Below, one piece after another: positions 17,399 to 24,626 of a stretch of DNA of 38,804 nt. Position numbers and translations under genes: made by a program. Under the pieces are notes generated by a model, which did no database searches, was not told the DNA's origin, and saw only the letters and a program-made list of their open reading frames with translations. The stretch's first letter is position 1. The number at the start of each line of letters is the position of its first letter. The DNA lies in contig CANRJA010000018.1 of the NCBI GenBank assembly GCA_947630825.1, positions 1 through 38,804 on the forward strand. The letters run 5' to 3'. Source of the DNA: an uncultured Clostridia bacterium (lineage in GTDB: Bacteria > Bacillota > Clostridia > Oscillospirales > Ruminococcaceae).

Positions 17399-17430
17399 AA
17401 AAGTTGCATTAAAACGTGCAACTTTTTTTG
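17399..17430 (+). terminator. Intrinsic terminator in the leader of the phage-derived cassette
   Basis: The arms AAAAGTTGCA (17399-17408) and TGCAACTTTT (17417-17426) run into seven T. It lies between the candidate promoter and the first packaging gene, so it would end a leader RNA of about 85 nt unless read through. No gene precedes it on this strand. Confidence 0.7.
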
Positions 17431-17511
17431 TTTTTATGGGATAAGTGAAAGGACAATTAGTTCTTTCATTTCTCAGGTCAGGAGAAAATCATATACGAAA
17501 GGAGAACGGAT

Positions 17512-17919
17512 GTGAGAAAATTTTCGGACAGAAAAATCTGTTCAACGCCGGCGGTCGAGCTTGCAAAGCTCGCACTGGGCAGAATGCTTTTTTCTGATAA
17601 AAAAGAAGCGGTGAGACTTTCTTTGAGCAATGGTGAAAATGTGAATATAAAATCATTAAACGCAGAAAGTCTTAATGCCGTTTCTGATATCAAGAGAAAC
17701 AAGGACGGCGGTGTTGATATAAAGCTGTTTGATATGATAAAGGCTGCAGAGCTTATGTTTGAAATCGGTAAGGAGGAAAACAGCAATGAGGAAAGCGGAA
17801 CAGACTTTCTTGAAGGCTTTTTAAAGTCGGCAAGACAGCTCAGTTCCTCTCAAGGTACTGCGAAAGTAAGCGCTTATCAATGTGAAAATTCCTGTTCTGA
17901 CGGGGTGAGTGAGGATTGA
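17512..17919 (+). CDS. Candidate small terminase subunit / first cassette gene
   Basis: 135 residues, hydrophilic and helical, not recognised by sequence. Its place just before the large terminase (stop overlaps the next start by 4 bases) is the usual place of the small terminase, which recognises the packaging site. No clear helix-turn-helix was seen, so the assignment is by position. The start is GTG at 17512 with AAAGGAG; the overlapping ATG at 17510 runs into TGA at once. The C-terminal 30 residues are Ser/Gln-rich. Confidence 0.5.
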   Translation: MRKFSDRKICSTPAVELAKLALGRMLFSDKKEAVRLSLSNGENVNIKSLNAESLNAVSDIKRNKDGGVDIKLFDMIKAAELMFEIGKEENSNEESGTDFLEGFLKSARQLSSSQGTAKVSAYQCENSCSDGVSED

Positions 17920-19184
17920 TAAAAAACAAGGCTTACAAAAGGTACTCAAAAAAGCAGATGCAGGTCTTGACCTGGTGGGCGGACGACCGCTATAAGGATA
18001 AGGACGTCATTATCTGCGACGGCGCTGTTAGAAGCGGCAAGACCACCTGTATGGCATTTTCGTTTGTTATGTGGGCTATGACAGAGTTTTCCGGGCGGAC
18101 ATTCGGGTTGTGCGGAAAAACAATCACCTCCCTCAAGCGCAATCTGGCAGAACCGCTTAAGGAAATGCTCAGGCACACGGGAATGAAAATCAATGAAAAT
18201 TCAACTAAGAACTTTTTAGAGGTTTCAAACGGAAAATACAAAAACAGGTTTTACTATTTCGGCGGAAAGGACGAAAGCTCGGCGGCTCTTATTCAGGGAA
18301 TTACTTTAGCAGGTGTTTTGCTTGACGAGGTTGCGCTTATGCCGAGGTCTTTTGTTGAACAGGCGATTGCAAGATGCTCTGTAACCGACTCGAAGATTTG
18401 GTTTAACTGCAACCCTGATAATCCTTATCACTGGTTTAAGAAAGAGTGGATAGATAAGATTGAGGATAAAAACGGCTTATATTTAAAGTTCACCTTAGAC
18501 GATAATCCGTCGCTTAGCAAAAAGGTGATAAAGCGATATCACAGCCTTTACTCAGGGGCTTTCTACGAGCGTTTTGTACTGGGCAACTGGTCGAGCGTTT
18601 ACGGCTGCGTTTATCCTATGTTCAATCCTGAAATTCACACTTTTGCAGAGCCGCCCGAACACATCGAAAGGTATGCTGTTTCCTGCGACTACGGAACGGT
18701 AAATCCATCATCTTTCGGGCTGTGGGGTTATTCAGACGGTGTGTGGTACCGCTTAAAGGAATACTATTATAACTCCCGAACGGAGGGCGTTCAGCGTACG
18801 GACGAGGAGCATTACAAAGGCTTAGCCGAGCTTTGCTCGGGCTGTGAAATAAAGCCGGAGGCAGTTGTGTGCGATCCGTCGGCAGCGTCGTTTATCGAGT
18901 GTATAAGACGGCACGGGGTTTTCAATGTTATTCCTGCGAAAAATGATGTTATGAGCGGTATACGCAAGGTTAGTGACGCCATAACCGATGGGAAAATAAA
19001 AATATCAAGAACCTGCACCGACACATTACGGGAATTTACTCTTTACCGCTGGGACGAAAAAAGCGGAGCGGACTGTCCTGTTAAGGAAAACGACCACGCA
19101 ATGGACGATATAAGGTATTTTGTTTCTGCTTTTGTATATACGTCGGGTGACGATTTCTTTGTAATGTCACTTGACAGAGAGTAA
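17916..19184 (+). CDS. terL: Phage terminase large subunit (PBSX family)
   Basis: This is the DNA-packaging motor: ATPase plus nuclease. The 422-residue protein has Walker A G-A-V-R-S-G-K-T-T (36-44), Walker B V-L-L-D-E-V (134-139), the coupling block F-N-C-N-P-D-N-P (163-170), a nuclease Asp in C-D-Y-G-T (D258) and the late H-A-M-D-D block. All motor and nuclease residues therefore appear intact. The start is TTG at 17916, overlapping the previous stop, with GGGGTGAG upstream. It is the firmest evidence that the cassette derives from a DNA-packaging tailed phage. Confidence 0.95.
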   Translation: MIKNKAYKRYSKKQMQVLTWWADDRYKDKDVIICDGAVRSGKTTCMAFSFVMWAMTEFSGRTFGLCGKTITSLKRNLAEPLKEMLRHTGMKINENSTKNFLEVSNGKYKNRFYYFGGKDESSAALIQGITLAGVLLDEVALMPRSFVEQAIARCSVTDSKIWFNCNPDNPYHWFKKEWIDKIEDKNGLYLKFTLDDNPSLSKKVIKRYHSLYSGAFYERFVLGNWSSVYGCVYPMFNPEIHTFAEPPEHIERYAVSCDYGTVNPSSFGLWGYSDGVWYRLKEYYYNSRTEGVQRTDEEHYKGLAELCSGCEIKPEAVVCDPSAASFIECIRRHGVFNVIPAKNDVMSGIRKVSDAITDGKIKISRTCTDTLREFTLYRWDEKSGADCPVKENDHAMDDIRYFVSAFVYTSGDDFFVMSLDRE

Positions 19185-19236
19185 AGAGCCTTTAACCAAT
19201 AACGGTTGCTTACAAAATTAAAAAGGAAAGATTAAA

Positions 19237-20424
19237 ATGAAACTAAAATTCAAAGAAAAAGAACCAAAGGCAGTTAGGTTTGAGCCTATTGCATCTTCGG
19301 CTGAAAGGATAAACGGAAAAGAAGTTTTTCGTTTAGCGCCTACGGCGTATACCTTTGAACAGGATTTTTACGAAACGCTGAGAAGTCAGGTTCCGATACT
19401 CGACGCCTGCATAGGAAAGATAGTAAGACTTACAGGCGGATTTAAGCTTGTTTGCGAGGACGAGAGATACCAGACCGAGCTTGAGGAGTTTATGGACACT
19501 ATTCCCGTGGGGATATCAGGCTCATCATTGAATACCTTTATGGATATTCATCTTGACCAGCTTTTAACTTACGGAAAGGCAATAGGAGAAATTCTTATTG
19601 ATCCTAAAACCAAGCAGGTATGCGGTATATACAATGCTGACCCTACACATTTTGAAGTCAAAGAGGGCGAGACCCCCTGCGACAGGCGTATATACGCAAT
19701 CAGCGGAGCTAACGACAGACTTATTGAATATCCTGAAAGGATACTCTATTCGGCGCTTAATCCCAATCCCAAGAACTCAAATGGCGTTTCGATATTCAGG
19801 GGACTTCCCAGCTTAGCGGGAATACTTATGAAGGTTTACGACTGCATCGGTCAGAACTTCGACCGAATAGGAAACATAAGATATGCGGTTACCTATAAGC
19901 CTTCAAATGAAAACGATAAGGCTTTTGCCAAGGAACGTGCAATGCAGATCGCAAAGGAATGGTCGGACGGAATGAACGCCTCACGCAATGGTATAATCAA
20001 GGACTTTGTTGCAGTGGGTGATGTTGAAATAAAGGTTATCGGTGCAGATAATCAAATCATTGATACTGAGATACCGGTTAGACAGCTTTTAGAGCAGATG
20101 ATTTCTAAACTTGCAATTCCTCCGTTTCTGCTTGGGCTAAACTGGTCTACTACCGAGAGAATGAGCCAGCAGCAGTGCGACATTTTAACTAGTGAGCTTG
20201 AGTATTACCGCAGACTTTTAACACCAATCATTCGCAGAATATGTGAAACGCATCTTCATCTATTGGGTTCGGACAGCAGAGTGTTTGTAGAATGGGATAA
20301 TATCAATCTCCAGGACGAATCTGAACTGGCTAAGGCAAGGCTTTATAACGCTCAGGCAGAGGCGCTGGAAATTGAAAACGAAAGGAGAAAAACAAATGGC
20401 GGAAAAGTCAGCGAAGCTGAGTAA
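19237..20424 (+). CDS. Phage portal protein
   Basis: 395 residues in the portal position. It shows an early segment P-I-L-D-A-C-I-G-K-I-V-R typical of phage portals, a central Y-G-K-A-I-G-E-I-L stretch, and the late block P-P-F-L-L-G-L-N-W-S followed by E-R-M-S-Q-Q-Q and a long helix. Portals form the 12-mer ring through which the terminase pumps DNA. AAAGGAAAG ribosome site. The 3' end overlaps the protease gene by 29 bases. Confidence 0.88.
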   Translation: MKLKFKEKEPKAVRFEPIASSAERINGKEVFRLAPTAYTFEQDFYETLRSQVPILDACIGKIVRLTGGFKLVCEDERYQTELEEFMDTIPVGISGSSLNTFMDIHLDQLLTYGKAIGEILIDPKTKQVCGIYNADPTHFEVKEGETPCDRRIYAISGANDRLIEYPERILYSALNPNPKNSNGVSIFRGLPSLAGILMKVYDCIGQNFDRIGNIRYAVTYKPSNENDKAFAKERAMQIAKEWSDGMNASRNGIIKDFVAVGDVEIKVIGADNQIIDTEIPVRQLLEQMISKLAIPPFLLGLNWSTTERMSQQQCDILTSELEYYRRLLTPIIRRICETHLHLLGSDSRVFVEWDNINLQDESELAKARLYNAQAEALEIENERRKTNGGKVSEAE

Positions 20425-21355
20425 TTCAAATAATTTTGAAGTAAACGACGAGATTATGGCAAAAATCAACGTCTACACAAGAAAAGAGTTAACATCAGAT
20501 GAGGTTTATGCTTTTCCTATTATTCTTTGCGACAATGATATCGACAGAGATTTTGAACGCTTTTCTGTAAAGTCTTTAGAGGCTTTGGCAGAACTGTTTA
20601 TCGGGAAAACGGGTATTTTTGACCATGATCCTAAGGGCAAAAATCAGACGGCCAGAATCTTTGACGCCGAGGTTAAAATTGATAAAAGTAAAAAGGCTGC
20701 AAACGGCGATGATTATACTTATCTTCTTGCTAAGGCATATATGCTGAAAAATCAAAAAACGCAGAACTTAATATCCGAAATTGAAGCCGGAATAAAGAAA
20801 GAGGTTTCGATAAGCTGTAAAATCGACAGCGAGATATGTTCAATTTGCGGAGCGGATAAGCGTATAAAGCCGTGCGCGCATATAAAGGGAAGAACCTACG
20901 GTAATAAGGTTTGTCATACGGTTTTGGAGCGTCCGTCTGACGCTTATGAATGGTCATTTGTTGCAATTCCGGCACAGCCTAATGCGGGGGTTTCAAAAGG
21001 CTTTTCAAAAGAGCCAAGCCGTTCTGATTTTACAAGAAAAACAATTTTAAAATCAAAGGAAACGCTTATAAAGGAGATTAAGCAGAAGGACGATATAATC
21101 TCAATGCTTTATGACGATTTAAGGCGTGACATTGTATCAATGAAATTTTTGTGCGACCCTTTTACAGTTAGGGAAGATTTCGAAAAAACAATTTCTGAGC
21201 TTGACTGCGAAAAGCTGTTGGATTTGAAGAAAACGCTTTTTGAAAAAGCTCAGAACAGAAGTCTTTTTACGCCTCAGCTTTGGACGAAAAAAGACAATTT
21301 ATATTCACAAAGCAAACTAAAAGAAAAAAACAATCAATTTAAGCTAGGAAAATAG
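20396..21355 (+). CDS. Prohead protease-like protein with Cys cluster
   Basis: 319 residues. The start is ATG 20396 because AAAGGAG precedes it; an in-frame ATG 24 bases upstream lacks a site. The N-terminal 200 residues look like an HK97-type prohead protease: His in F-D-H-D-P-K-G (H77), Ser in K-E-V-S-I-S-C (S138/S140), and the closing block A-Y-E-W-S-F-V-A-I-P-A-Q-P-N-A-G-V. Inserted there is a possible metal-binding cluster C148-x2-C151-x8-C160-x-H162 with C173. The remaining helical part may act as scaffold. Confidence 0.75.
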   Translation: MAEKSAKLSNSNNFEVNDEIMAKINVYTRKELTSDEVYAFPIILCDNDIDRDFERFSVKSLEALAELFIGKTGIFDHDPKGKNQTARIFDAEVKIDKSKKAANGDDYTYLLAKAYMLKNQKTQNLISEIEAGIKKEVSISCKIDSEICSICGADKRIKPCAHIKGRTYGNKVCHTVLERPSDAYEWSFVAIPAQPNAGVSKGFSKEPSRSDFTRKTILKSKETLIKEIKQKDDIISMLYDDLRRDIVSMKFLCDPFTVREDFEKTISELDCEKLLDLKKTLFEKAQNRSLFTPQLWTKKDNLYSQSKLKEKNNQFKLGK

Positions 21356-21377
21356 CTTTAAGAAAAGGAGAAAAATT

Positions 21378-22349
21378 ATGTATAAAGATATTAAATTAGA
21401 AAAAGGACTTTACAACATCACAGGAAAGAGCTTTACAAGGGTATTATCAGAAATGGACCCTGATGAGAACTATAAGAATACCGAATTAGCAGGTCTTGAC
21501 GCTTTTGAACGTCAGCTTAAGAGATTTGATATTAAGGTTCAGGGAGAACACTGCGACCGTGTCGAAAAATTCTTCCTCTCAACCGAATCGGCAGTATTGT
21601 TCCCTGAGTTTGTAAGAAGATGTATTAAAGAGGGCATGGATAAAGCTTCTATTTTGTCTGAGGTAGTTGCTGCAACTACTTTGACAGATGAGATCACCTA
21701 CAGAGGACTTACCATTGTTAAGTCGGGAACAGATAATGCGGTTGCAGAGGGAGCTTCTCTGCCTAGCACAAACGTAAGGCTTGCAGCGTCAGGAATTAAT
21801 CTTTCTAAGTTTGCAAGAAAGCTTTCTTGCACATATGAGTCGATCAGAAAGCACAGAATAGAAACCTTTGCGGTAATTCTTAGAGATTTAGGCGCTCAGA
21901 TTTCAAGAGCGGTAAACAAGCAGGCTGCTACTGTTTTAAGTGCAGGAGTTTCACCTGTTGAACTTAGCGGAGAATCTCTTACATATGCTGATTTGGCAGA
22001 TTTCTGGGCTTCAATGGATGCCTATGATATGACAACAATGCTTTGTTCGCCTGCTGATATGGCTAAGATACTTGCATTTGAGGAAATGAAGTATTGCGTA
22101 TCTGATTATATGACAAGCGGAATGGTTAAAACTCCTTATGGCGTAACGCTAGTAAAATGTCCGGAATTAGAGGACAGTATCGCTATCGGAGTTGATAAAA
22201 ACTGCGCTCTCGAAATGATTTACGGAACAGATATTATTGTTGATTTTGATAAGCTTATTTCAACTCAGTGTGACGAGATAGCTTGCTCTATCACAGTAGG
22301 TTTTTCTAAAATCGCAAGCGGAGCTACCGCAGTTTTGGCAACTGTTTAG
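21378..22349 (+). CDS. Phage major capsid protein (HK97-fold candidate)
   Basis: 323 residues directly after the protease, with AAAAGGAG upstream. It has an N-terminal helical arm, then T-T-L-T-D-E-I-T-Y-R-G-L, a long spine helix region (R-D-L-G-A-Q-I-S-R-A-V-N-K-Q) and a C-terminal beta domain ending in T-V-G-F-S-K-I-A-S-G-A. This order fits HK97-fold shell proteins. Size, position and the Ala/Thr composition support the call; exact family membership was not tested. No frame damage. Confidence 0.82.
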   Translation: MYKDIKLEKGLYNITGKSFTRVLSEMDPDENYKNTELAGLDAFERQLKRFDIKVQGEHCDRVEKFFLSTESAVLFPEFVRRCIKEGMDKASILSEVVAATTLTDEITYRGLTIVKSGTDNAVAEGASLPSTNVRLAASGINLSKFARKLSCTYESIRKHRIETFAVILRDLGAQISRAVNKQAATVLSAGVSPVELSGESLTYADLADFWASMDAYDMTTMLCSPADMAKILAFEEMKYCVSDYMTSGMVKTPYGVTLVKCPELEDSIAIGVDKNCALEMIYGTDIIVDFDKLISTQCDEIACSITVGFSKIASGATAVLATV

Positions 22350-22393
22350 TCTGGTTTATCTATTTTTAAATTTAGTATATAGGAGTGTTTTAA

Positions 22394-22762
22394 ATGAACC
22401 TCGAGACTATTACTGATATGTTTCAGTCTATCTCCGAGCTTTCGGACAGTGATGTGCAAAATTACAGTGATACTATTGATGACGCAAAGGATTTTATTGA
22501 AAGAAGGCTTATTTCTGACCCTGCTTCATCGGAAGATATAAAAAGATGTGAATATGCAGCGGCTTGTGTAGCCTATTATGATTATACAATCCTTTCATTA
22601 ATGAAAGAAAAAAGAGGCTTAACGCTTACCGGCTCAGTAACCGAATCGTTAAATTCAGATGAAAGACTTGCAGGAGCAAGAGAGCTTAGAAATAATGCGT
22701 TATTACGCATTTCAGATCTGACTCAGGATATGGATTTTATCTTTGCTTCTGTAAGGGGATAA
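22394..22762 (+). CDS. Head-tail connector-like protein
   Basis: 122 residues, almost all helical, with C-E-Y-A-A-A-C-V-A-Y-Y-D-Y in the middle. Helical proteins of this size just after the capsid gene usually form the first connector ring (HK97 gp6 or SPP1 gp15 type). Family resemblance is by size, fold and position. TAGGAG ribosome site; 3 bases to the next gene. Confidence 0.6.
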   Translation: MNLETITDMFQSISELSDSDVQNYSDTIDDAKDFIERRLISDPASSEDIKRCEYAAACVAYYDYTILSLMKEKRGLTLTGSVTESLNSDERLAGARELRNNALLRISDLTQDMDFIFASVRG

Positions 22763-22765
22763 ATT

Positions 22766-23170
22766 ATGTTTGAAGATTTAAAAACAAATATAACATCTGT
22801 TTTATCTGATAATGATATTGAAGTATGCAACGAATATTTCGATGTGGATTTATTCAAAAAATATAATCAGAATATCGGTTTTTTGAGCGTAAAGAAAGTT
22901 GAAAAAATCAATGATTATAAAAATCTATTTGAAATAAAATCATGCGAGGTTTTTGTTACTCTTGAGTGTAAGGTTATCGCCAAAAAGGGTACGACATCTG
23001 AATTGTTTTCTCAGGCTATGAATAATTTATATGAGGATTTTTTGTTTGGCGAAGAGCTTATGCCGGTTTCACTGGATATGGAGAATCTTAAAAACAATAG
23101 TCTTTATTCACGTCTTGAAACTAATTTTACTTTAAAATTCAGGTACTTTCTGACTAATACGTCTATTTAA
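22766..23170 (+). CDS. Neck / tail-terminator-like protein
   Basis: 134 residues of mixed alpha-beta character: a helix, then strands (C-E-V-F-V-T-L-E-C-K-V), then a helix and a final strand (L-K-F-R-Y-F-L). This resembles tail-terminator or neck proteins of siphophages, which sit at this place. The ribosome site AGGGGAT overlaps the previous stop, so translation is coupled. Assignment by position and fold pattern only. Confidence 0.5.
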   Translation: MFEDLKTNITSVLSDNDIEVCNEYFDVDLFKKYNQNIGFLSVKKVEKINDYKNLFEIKSCEVFVTLECKVIAKKGTTSELFSQAMNNLYEDFLFGEELMPVSLDMENLKNNSLYSRLETNFTLKFRYFLTNTSI

Positions 23171-23190
23171 CTTGAAAGGAAGAACAGAAT

Positions 23191-23550
23191 ATGACAGAAA
23201 AAAATTCAAAACATTTGATTGCAATGACTGTGGATACTTATAAATTCTATCTTAAGGATTATAAATTATTTAGATCAGCAAAAGTTTCCGAGATATCAAC
23301 CTTTACTAAACGAAAAGAGCTTCGTTATCTAGGATATGGTTACAAACGTATCAATGCGACAGCTATTGTCGATAAGGAAAGACTAACTCAGTTGAATATG
23401 GTGCTTGATGACTTTATGATTACAGATTCGCACAGCGTTGTTGTTGAGGGATTAAATCTCGGTAATTATATAATTACAGACTATGAGATTTGCGGTTCTG
23501 ATGATGATTATATTTATGAGGTAAAGCTGAATTTGTGCAGCCTTTTATAA
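23191..23550 (+). CDS. Small phage tail-like protein, family not recognised
   Basis: 119 residues, mostly beta, ending in G-N-Y-I-I-T-D-Y-E-I-C and Y-I-Y-E-V-K-L-N-L. It could be a short tail-tube or baseplate/adaptor protein, but it is smaller than typical tube proteins. AAAGGAAG ribosome site. It lies between the neck-like gene and the hub-like gene, exactly where tube, chaperone and tape-measure genes would be in a normal siphophage. Confidence 0.5.
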   Translation: MTEKNSKHLIAMTVDTYKFYLKDYKLFRSAKVSEISTFTKRKELRYLGYGYKRINATAIVDKERLTQLNMVLDDFMITDSHSVVVEGLNLGNYIITDYEICGSDDDYIYEVKLNLCSLL

Positions 23551-23574
23551 GATGATTTTTAAAACTATTATGAA

Positions 23575-24531
23575 ATGACGGTGATTCAAATTAATAAAGT
23601 AAGTGCAGAAATAAGAGTGATGAATTTAAACGGAGCAGTAAATACAGTTATTCTGGATAAATGTATTTATTTCAGTGTGGATAAGGAAAGATATACGCCT
23701 TACACAACCTTTAAGGGATCTTTTATTTTACCTCAATACTACGAAGAAATAATTTCGATAAAGTTTATTATAGACGGTATTGACGTTCACTATGGGTCTG
23801 TTGATATGGCTAAAATGGTTTTTAAAAAAGGATATTACAGACTGGACATAAAATCTCGTTCATATACACTGGCGCTGGGAATTAATCAGCCGAAGCCCGG
23901 AATAAATTCAAATGTATCGCTGAGGAGTATATTGGTGTCGAATGTAGCGCTTAAAAATGTTACTTATCAGCTTTCTACAAAAACTATTAATTATGTATAT
24001 CTTACAGATAATTCTACTTTGTGGGACGCAGTTGTAGCGTATTCATTAAAAGCGTATGGAACTTATCCGTTTATATATAAGACAAACGAGGTAAGGGTAA
24101 CTGCGCCAACTAATATTACATCGAGGGATTATTTTGATAACAATTTAATAGAAGTGTATAACGGTTCGACCTTGTCAAATTTGATTTCAGATATTCATAT
24201 GCAGGATTCTGAGGGTAATTACGAAACCTATAATTTATCTGATAATTATGCTAGTTTAAGAGATATAGTACGGCACAAACAAATTCCGCTTGATATGCAA
24301 TGGCTTGCTGACACTAATATGGCGCTGACCAGCAGGATCAATTTTGCAAAAAGAGGAACTAAATATAATGGCATTAAGGTTTTAGGTTATTTGGGTGAAG
24401 AATTATTTGATAAATTTACATATGATATTGAAAATATGAATAAAGCAGACTGCGTTATTCATAAGCTTAACATAAGCGGAAGCAATAATGTTATTTATAC
24501 CACTATGTATCAATATACCGACGCATATTAA
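23575..24531 (+). CDS. Tail-hub-like protein (gpD/XkdQ-type candidate)
   Basis: 318 residues, beta-rich. The N-terminal domain has Y-T-T-F-K-G-S-F-I-L-P and Y-Y-R-L-D-I-K-S-R-S-Y-T-L-A, then N-Q-P-K-P-G; the C terminus has G-Y-L-G-E-E and a closing strand pair. This pattern recalls the late-control-D/baseplate hub family that caps the tail tube. The ATG at 23575 has no good ribosome site, so the start is uncertain (GTG 23581 or ATG 23620 are alternatives). Last gene of the cassette; the terminator follows after about 50 bases. Confidence 0.5.
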   Translation: MTVIQINKVSAEIRVMNLNGAVNTVILDKCIYFSVDKERYTPYTTFKGSFILPQYYEEIISIKFIIDGIDVHYGSVDMAKMVFKKGYYRLDIKSRSYTLALGINQPKPGINSNVSLRSILVSNVALKNVTYQLSTKTINYVYLTDNSTLWDAVVAYSLKAYGTYPFIYKTNEVRVTAPTNITSRDYFDNNLIEVYNGSTLSNLISDIHMQDSEGNYETYNLSDNYASLRDIVRHKQIPLDMQWLADTNMALTSRINFAKRGTKYNGIKVLGYLGEELFDKFTYDIENMNKADCVIHKLNISGSNNVIYTTMYQYTDAY

Positions 24532-24577: not shown

Positions 24578-24626
24578 AAAAAAGGAACAGTTTTTCCAAA
24601 CGGAAAGCTGTTCCTTTTGCTTTTTT
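24578..24626. terminator. Bidirectional terminator closing the cassette and the coaD operon
   Basis: The arms AAAAGGAACAG (24580-24590) and CTGTTCCTTTT (24608-24618) are perfect over 11 bases. T-rich tails occur on both strands. Confidence 0.85.

Follow-up and report, generated by a model that had tools for sequence, protein, structure and literature searches.

The closest described parallel to the locus reported here is FpGTA, the gene transfer agent (GTA) of Faecalibacterium, published in Nature Communications in 2026 (PMC12946183). The locus is a cassette of nine head and packaging genes at positions 17512-24531 of the window, by which we mean the whole stretch of 38,804 nucleotides that was analysed. 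The window is an entire contig (C18) of a 1.82 Mb draft genome, a metagenome-assembled genome (MAG) of an uncultured Ruminococcaceae bacterium that is 94% complete. As reported, FpGTA resembles the present system in its Gram-positive gut anaerobe hosts of the Ruminococcaceae/Oscillospiraceae area, in its head and packaging operon of about ten open reading frames (ORFs) with a small terminase (TerS) devoid of an obvious DNA-binding domain, in its holin and endolysin genes, which lie in a separate, distant operon as the holin operon here is unlinked, and in its particles of 40 nm with no identifiable tails, comparable to the nearly tailless particle predicted here (PMC12946183). In contrast, its operon I measures 10.5 kb compared to 7.0 kb here, and its operon II carries baseplate, tail fibre and receptor-binding protein genes, which were not found here (PMC12946183).

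According to the same report, 12 of 12 Faecalibacterium genomes carry operon I, and none of the Gemmiger and Subdoligranulum genomes examined there does (PMC12946183), whereas the portal gene of the present cassette occurs under five GTDB family codes. GTA-like packaging was also described for Ruminococcus callidus (4.6 kb, no operon identified), CAG-115, Onthomonas and Christensenellaceae, and an operon search in four MAGs (Onthomonas, Gemmiger and two F. prausnitzii) gave a strong candidate in one F. prausnitzii MAG (PMC12946183). The cassette is a candidate for the machinery of at least the Ruminococcus host-DNA packaging. Searches of open-licence PMC papers brought up no order-wide GTA lineage, series of tail losses or shared leader.

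Two further systems are informative. The GTA of Rhodobacter capsulatus (RcGTA) has a siphovirus-like tail and differs from the present system in gene content and family. The two are alike in their domesticated head genes and in a TerS lacking an N-terminal helix-turn-helix (HTH) domain (PMC6854486). The plasmid NZ_CP120734.1 of Tepidibacter hydrothermalis (locus L286), which we group with PBSX/Mu-like contractile phages, shows the same gene order, terS, large terminase gene (terL), portal, XkdF protease, small gene and capsid, followed later by DUF2634 and Baseplate J, and its portal is 40.5% identical to that of the window. It differs in its annotated tape measure, baseplate J, XhlA, holin and metallopeptidase, none of which is in the window cassette. 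Labelled a non-mobilizable plasmid, it reads to us as an intact phage-plasmid collinear with the cassette.

A sequence-only reading of the window had proposed a domesticated or helper-dependent particle matching neither known class exactly. The last remark was fair, although FpGTA, known since January 2026, is a close parallel. Our analysis favours, with a probability of about two in three (0.68), a GTA-like system that is inherited vertically, dispersed in the genome and equipped with a nearly tailless particle, the cassette being its operon for head and packaging. The term domesticated is supported by the single copy, a descent matching that of the host, purifying selection, the lack of a mobility gene in the cassette and a GTA-type TerS.

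Descent with the host and purifying selection

Within the genus, the portal gene was present once each in 14 of 15 genomes, own genome included, and the remaining one (G008) had neither portal nor TerL. A first search found it in 24 of 61 genomes, G021 having two matches on two contigs, and a search at the scale of the order found it in 62 of 297 genomes, exactly once each (E <1e-99), in 37 of 146 genera and under five GTDB family codes. The locus is therefore not empty in all sister strains; an empty locus in all of them, with clear att repeats, was one of the two outcomes that the sequence-only reading had named as a refutation. A portal and TerL tree was computed with 80 genomes (quick IQ-TREE, LG+G4; G021 and G093 were omitted of the 82 carriers). 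Families f1 (30 rows), f24 (30) and f14 (19) were each placed on one side of a branch, which requires 3 changes, the minimum; per family, 0 of 500 shuffles were as low. The 13 genera with at least two members need 12 changes, also the minimum, which does not imply that every genus is a clade, as g137 is split around g106 and g129. No supported jump between host families occurred in any tree computed. The family group of the window includes loci of Ruminococcus spp., R. flavefaciens and Clostridium methylpentosum, and Acetanaerobacterium elongatum is placed among the f24 rows. When compared with ten other TerLs, all 77 of 77 cassette TerLs grouped on one side of a branch (SH-aLRT, a branch support test, 93); this comparison set is small, and no cassette-type portal or protease was found in the loci of the ten. 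Throughout, the genomes are mostly MAGs, families and genera are codes and the trees are quick ones. The cassette is old, single-copy and vertically inherited.

Its surroundings were analyzed likewise. As the sequence-only reading had it, the cassette sits between glgP (Pfam Phosphorylase), 380 bp upstream, and the coaD operon, with c1 and coaD (Pfam CTP_transf_like) downstream. The search in relatives that it had advised found glgP and/or coaD-operon neighbours in 10 of 10 loci of the window clade, and none of these ten loci held a full prophage at the spot; neither of its two refuting outcomes was observed. In L032 and L053, too, glgP comes before the cassette, in L189, L192 and L193 it is located two genes upstream, and coaD-operon genes are found near L029. 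In L028, cassette and coaD operon form a block inverted relative to glgP and c7/c8. Among viral sequences, a phage collection of 50,697 records gave portal relatives in 6, five uncultured faecal contigs and one Microcystis phage (28.6%), and a TerL match in 1228; IMG/VR holds at least 595 TerL relatives and at least 112 portal relatives. Most of the 80 listed IMG/VR matches per gene, on contigs below 20 kb, look like trimmed chromosomal cassettes.

These data bear on the helper-dependent particle, a phage satellite borrowing tails, for example from a siphoprophage on contig C16 of the same genome. Capsid-forming phage-inducible satellites have head genes without a full tail. The cassette shares this property, and the C16 siphoprophage is apparently complete, with tape measure, CHAP-like protein, holin and integrase. 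The cassette differs from these satellites in having no integrase, one copy in each of the 62 carriers and a tree congruent with that of the host (att repeats being outside the search). Furthermore, the C16 prophage encodes a TerL of its own that is distant (44 bits to the profile), and no more than 6 of 15 genus genomes contain the holin family of this prophage. Because a satellite should move and the cassette genes track the host phylogeny, the helper-dependent reading is unsupported, and we consider it very unlikely.

Selection was estimated from the ratio of nonsynonymous to synonymous substitutions (dN/dS), taken as the median of pairwise Nei-Gojobori values for pairs with dS 0.05-1.5, from 7 to 10 loci depending on the gene. 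The median was 0.043 for terL, 0.034 for portal, 0.094 for the major capsid gene (mcp), 0.10 for h1, 0.145 for the protease gene, 0.15 for hub, 0.17 for terS, 0.19 for h2 and 0.32 for h3, compared to 0.034 for glgP, 0.035 for coaD and 0.021 for spoVS. Thus, terL and portal are under purifying selection as strong as that on glgP and coaD, and the three genes singled out in the sequence-only reading (terL, portal and capsid) are far from the value of 1 that it associated with decay. Vertical inheritance and purifying selection, as expected of a GTA, are seen in the tree congruence (with family forks open in two further trees) and in these ratios.

Decay of a prophage left at a conserved site of insertion would account for the derivation from a larger phage-type module and for the in-frame stop carried by 6 of 62 portals. 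A defective remnant should display relaxed selection and decaying frames; instead, medians were 0.03-0.32 by gene, terL and portal were as constrained as housekeeping genes, neither a dN/dS near 1 nor frequent frameshifts were seen, and the descent with the host is deep. The recent remnant considered in the sequence-only reading is contradicted by these values and by this depth, and of all explanations weighed here decay is the least probable.

When the window is compared with L021, its nearest relative, dS amounts to 0.07-0.15 across terS-mcp and 0.41-1.15 across h1-hub (22394-24531); the tail-proximal segment has therefore been exchanged or evolves faster. This contrast would suit an old element that close relatives still swap by recombination and that persists through repeated transfer, not through a benefit to the host. 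However, the portal and TerL tree can do without any transfer between families or genera in excess of the minimum, and the neighbourhood is inherited too, which leaves this explanation only a slim chance.

Genes of the cassette and its missing tail

All nine ORFs are open and rightward on the forward strand, as previously read from the sequence, in the order TerS, TerL, portal, putative protease, capsid, three connector-like proteins and baseplate hub. The first ORF, orfA (terS, 17512-17919), is TerS as judged by its position and by alignment to 24 relatives, including ones with a visible HTH. TerL (17916-19184) matches Pfam Terminase_6N (1.4e-16), Terminase_6C (1.1e-5) and PHROG 2 (2.6e-51). 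In 25 aligned sequences, its positions D137, E138, D258, D320, D393 and D397 are invariant and S40, G41 and K42 nearly so, row L050 beginning past the motif. We take the latter three to be the Walker A motif and the six acidic positions to be Walker and nuclease residues, in line with the complete set claimed in the sequence-only reading. The portal gene (19237-20424) matches PHROG 30703 (2.7e-144) and Pfam PF04860. The fourth gene (20372-21355) probably encodes an XkdF-type head maturation protease: it matches PHROG 16951 (3.5e-97; function not given there), its positional counterpart in the Tepidibacter plasmid is annotated as an XkdF-like serine protease and its core is conserved in 25 aligned sequences; a search of its own genome with the Peptidase_S78 profile gave no match. 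The major capsid gene (mcp, 21378-22349) matches PHROG 3922 (1.6e-74) and Pfam PF25209. In most of the loci L031, L033-L045, L047, L050, L052 and L054 (Ruminococcus group), the capsid gene precedes the protease gene, the opposite of the window order.

orfA and the three genes following mcp gave no family match better than E 0.06 in Pfam or PHROGs. From its position after the capsid gene and a 21-row alignment, h1 (22394-22762) is predicted to encode a head-tail connector-like protein, and h2 (22766-23170), from its position and an 18-row alignment, a neck or tail-completion-like protein; a relationship of h2 to a 117-aa gene was rejected upon comparison. The product of h3 (23191-23550) is a small, beta-rich protein in an AlphaFold2 model (pLDDT 83). 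By profile, it weakly matches (E 0.0019, probability 14%) the N-terminal region of the LysM protein that full-form relatives encode, and may be a hub adaptor, i.e. the LysM protein minus its LysM part; its comparison as a tail-tube homologue was negative. L029, L030 and L032 carry a fusion of h2 with h3. The ninth gene (23575-24531), described as hub-like in the sequence-only reading, was confirmed at the level of the structure model (pLDDT 91.6) as a baseplate hub of contractile-phage type with the Mu gp44 / T4 gp27 / VgrG fold: Foldseek against the PDB gave 3d37 (Neisseria Mu-like, 6e-16) and 1wru (Mu gp44, 3e-15), and also diffocin, T4 gp27 and VgrG, and the counterpart in L219 matches PHROG 177, baseplate hub (6.6e-14). 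A terminator-like hairpin predicted by folding at 24580-24618 on the forward strand, with counterparts seen by eye in 6 other loci inspected, agrees with the terminator reported earlier at the cassette end. In the sister clade L189, L192 and L193, a 1011-aa gene lies 3' of hub in 3 of 3 loci.

As the sequence-only reading had listed, no integrase, repressor, replication, tape-measure, holin or endolysin gene is among the nine ORFs, as judged by family search, alignment and position; four of the nine are without family match. As in a GTA, phage-derived structural and packaging genes are thus present without replication or integration genes in the cassette. Sheath, Baseplate J and associated tail profiles gave no matches in the window cassette and are present in related full-form cassettes. 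Of two fuller cassettes, that of L219 further encodes a LysM protein and Baseplate J (5e-48) and contains a gp25/sheath-initiator-like and a Mu Gp48-like gene, and that of L242 has a sheath as well. Over 73 genomes (7 of 80 with loci under 12.7 kb being omitted), sheath was found in 19, Baseplate J in 40, LysM in 47 and hub in 64, with 5, 5, 6 and 3 changes on the tree, respectively. As the ORF caller picks antisense ORFs, gene lists of some loci are rough, and later counts were made from six-frame segments. The numbers of changes by themselves do not separate gain from loss; that the change was one of loss, starting from a fuller form, is more likely because the Tepidibacter plasmid also has a tape measure, XhlA, holin and metallopeptidase. 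The window genus retains head, connectors and hub. Ruminococcus-type loci have the same gene set, with no widely shared gene 3' of hub, some flanking genes there being unassigned.

A particle kept by the host for another use, either a PBSX-like or tailocin-like killer or a capsid with other cargo, would fit the selection and inheritance data equally well, and the retention of the hub while other tail parts were lost is in its favour. PBSX, as described, packages DNA, does not inject it and acts as a tailocin (PMC12946183), which also counts for such a particle. On the other hand, a PBSX-like contractile element has sheath, baseplate J and tail genes in its cluster, whereas in the window cassette the sheath and baseplate, the killing parts of tailocins, are those missing and the best-kept parts are the DNA-packaging motor and the portal. 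We regard a killer or structural particle as unlikely.

A truncated small terminase and a shared hairpin leader

Loss of the TerS HTH has been proposed as a mark of GTA-type small terminases that permits non-selective packaging (Sherlock et al. 2019, PMC6854486). The HTH precedes the common C-terminal core in 14 of 25 aligned TerS proteins. It is absent in 14 carriers of the window genus, as determined in three frames within 1.1 kb upstream of terL and by reading the N-termini, and likewise in L038, L043, L044, L050 and further genera. At the scale of the order, scoring with one HTH profile gave 25 with, 52 without and 12 changes and was judged unreliable, so two other measures were used. Open space upstream of the TerS core gave 48 with room, 29 without and 15 changes; with its cut at 45 residues, 3 of 14 rows of the window genus count as having room and none shows an HTH. 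Hand labels by genus, with rows of genera that could not be judged carrying no label, gave 53 with, 44 without and 8 changes on the tree. The GTA-type TerS thus characterizes the window genus and is lacking in many relatives.

A feature beyond those reported from the sequence-only reading is a conserved leader before terS. It consists of a hairpin GTTGCA/TGCAAC followed by a T-run and a GGGATAAGTGA box (17403-17448, forward strand), and of a second inverted repeat, TGAAAGGAC/GTTCTTTCA (17446-17468, forward strand); both the hairpin and the repeat are conserved in 10 of 10 aligned leaders of the window clade. The site begins 109 bp 5' of terS, the rest of the intergenic region being variable among the ten loci, and with both stems it folds at -32.8 kcal/mol. 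The same stem lies 5' of terS in several more distant loci, and a terminator-like site within 250 bp of terS was found in 16 of 30 other loci compared to 44 of 227 control ORFs. GAACNNNNGTTC, a LexA-like sequence, is not present in exact form in the ten leaders. In function, the hairpin may be an attenuator or an operator, or it may mark where a promoter borders.

The composite leader pattern has exactly 2 matches in its own genome, one before terS and one at C6:66455. The latter lies 91 bp 5' of a 76-aa gene followed by a Holin_SPP1 gene (3.9e-25). The 76-aa gene, which we read as XhlA-like, matches PHROG 1863 (function not given; scanned on the G002 copy). It is found at 88-100% identity in ten window-clade genomes, with the hairpin before it in all ten (alignment, by eye), and four of the ten have further copies near 46% identity; the holin partner was identified in its own genome only. 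In the genus, the pattern has 28 matches, and its reversed form, used as a control, has 0 in 15 genomes. The count of 28 is a minimum because three window-clade leaders (cassette or 76-aa gene) and some others narrowly miss the strict pattern. The head cassette and the 76-aa gene each follow 8 of these matches. Another 6 share a single position, 5' of a 606-aa GTPase-like gene, where they precede one of two kinds of protein, the first being Lin1244_N (1.5e-27 in L326) and the second (L329) having no Pfam match and appearing to us phage replisome-organiser-like; the G005 match was assigned to this group by its upstream flank, the gene being past the contig end. A CHAP-type gene follows 3 matches, of which two were scanned (CHAP 1.3e-13 and 2e-13) and the third, L307, was assigned from its likeness. 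Two other sites, L305:5056 and L306:5607 (G005 and G012), have the hairpin 115-116 bp 5' of a SocA/Panacea-type gene (Pfam 6.7e-21 in L306; the L305 counterpart reads as two ORFs). As judged from sequence alone, the leader is common to the cassette and the holin operon here, and to CHAP-type and phage-type genes in sister genomes; in a GTA with dispersed genes, lysis functions included, these would be co-regulated, as they may be here.

Two other candidates for the missing functions were rejected. The tail and holin region of contig C16 (L204, L205 and L188) is not a second operon of the system and belongs to the separate siphoprophage, with ORFs for TerS, TerL, capsid, a 1038-aa tape measure, a CHAP-like protein, holin and integrase. 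Holin PF05105 as lysis partner was discarded; it occurs in 6 of 15 genus genomes, mostly near contig ends.

Proposed operation and history of the system

The GTA-like system would operate as follows. The head and holin operons would be under one switch. Once the shared leader or promoter is turned on, TerS and TerL would pack non-selected host DNA into a small capsid until a headful is reached; the connectors and the hub would close the capsid as a very short or absent tail; and the unlinked holin genes, together with a CHAP endolysin found in sister genomes, would lyse the cell and so release the particles. Of all these steps, we are least sure of the delivery of the DNA to other cells. Strict GTA status, with random host DNA and its transfer, is something we infer.

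Several observations weigh against this interpretation. The lineage is known from its genes, and the particle, the packaged DNA and the transfer are predictions from them. The portal is absent from 235 of 297 order genomes and, within carrier genera, from G008 and G274, so the cassette is dispensable; the stops in 6 of 62 portals and the faster evolution of tail-proximal genes (h3 at 0.32) were given above. With 25 named rows added to the tree, f24 is divided over two branches where a fork is open, and a tree of TerL alone sets two f1 rows (G018 and G238) apart, likewise at an open fork; because of these forks, the family-level order is not firmly resolved. The TerS HTH is retained in many relatives, so that a TerS of GTA type does not extend to the whole family. 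Four sister-clade genomes and G008 have neither a leader match nor the 76-aa gene, no CHAP-type site matches the leader pattern in the own genome, itself a 94% complete MAG, and of the 28 leader matches 2 precede the SocA/Panacea-type gene and 1, near a contig end, was left unresolved. Finally, Baseplate_J is absent from the own genome and from 13 of 14 other genus genomes, being found within the genus only in G003 (locus L202), and no receptor-binding or tail-fibre gene was found, the genome-wide search having covered Baseplate_J and one holin family only.

A more detailed history can be proposed, for which we see about even odds. There would have been one domestication at or near the base of the order, after which dismantling of the contractile tail set in, in parallel in several host lineages, and the recognition domain of TerS was lost repeatedly. 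The window genus would now have a capsid that is nearly tailless and plugged by the hub, with the head, holin, endolysin and a phage-type replication or regulatory gene in separate operons under one hairpin leader, and the system would be the machinery for the 4.6 kb particles of Ruminococcus.

If the GTA-like interpretation is right, host-run DNA packaging would be old and inherited across an order of gut bacteria that are abundant, beyond a single genus, and a named candidate machine would be at hand for the packaging that faecal viromes show for Ruminococcus. The related cassettes would line up as a natural series, with a contractile-tailed form at one end and a nearly tailless capsid at the other, and the leader would provide a testable cis-element linking head and lysis genes.

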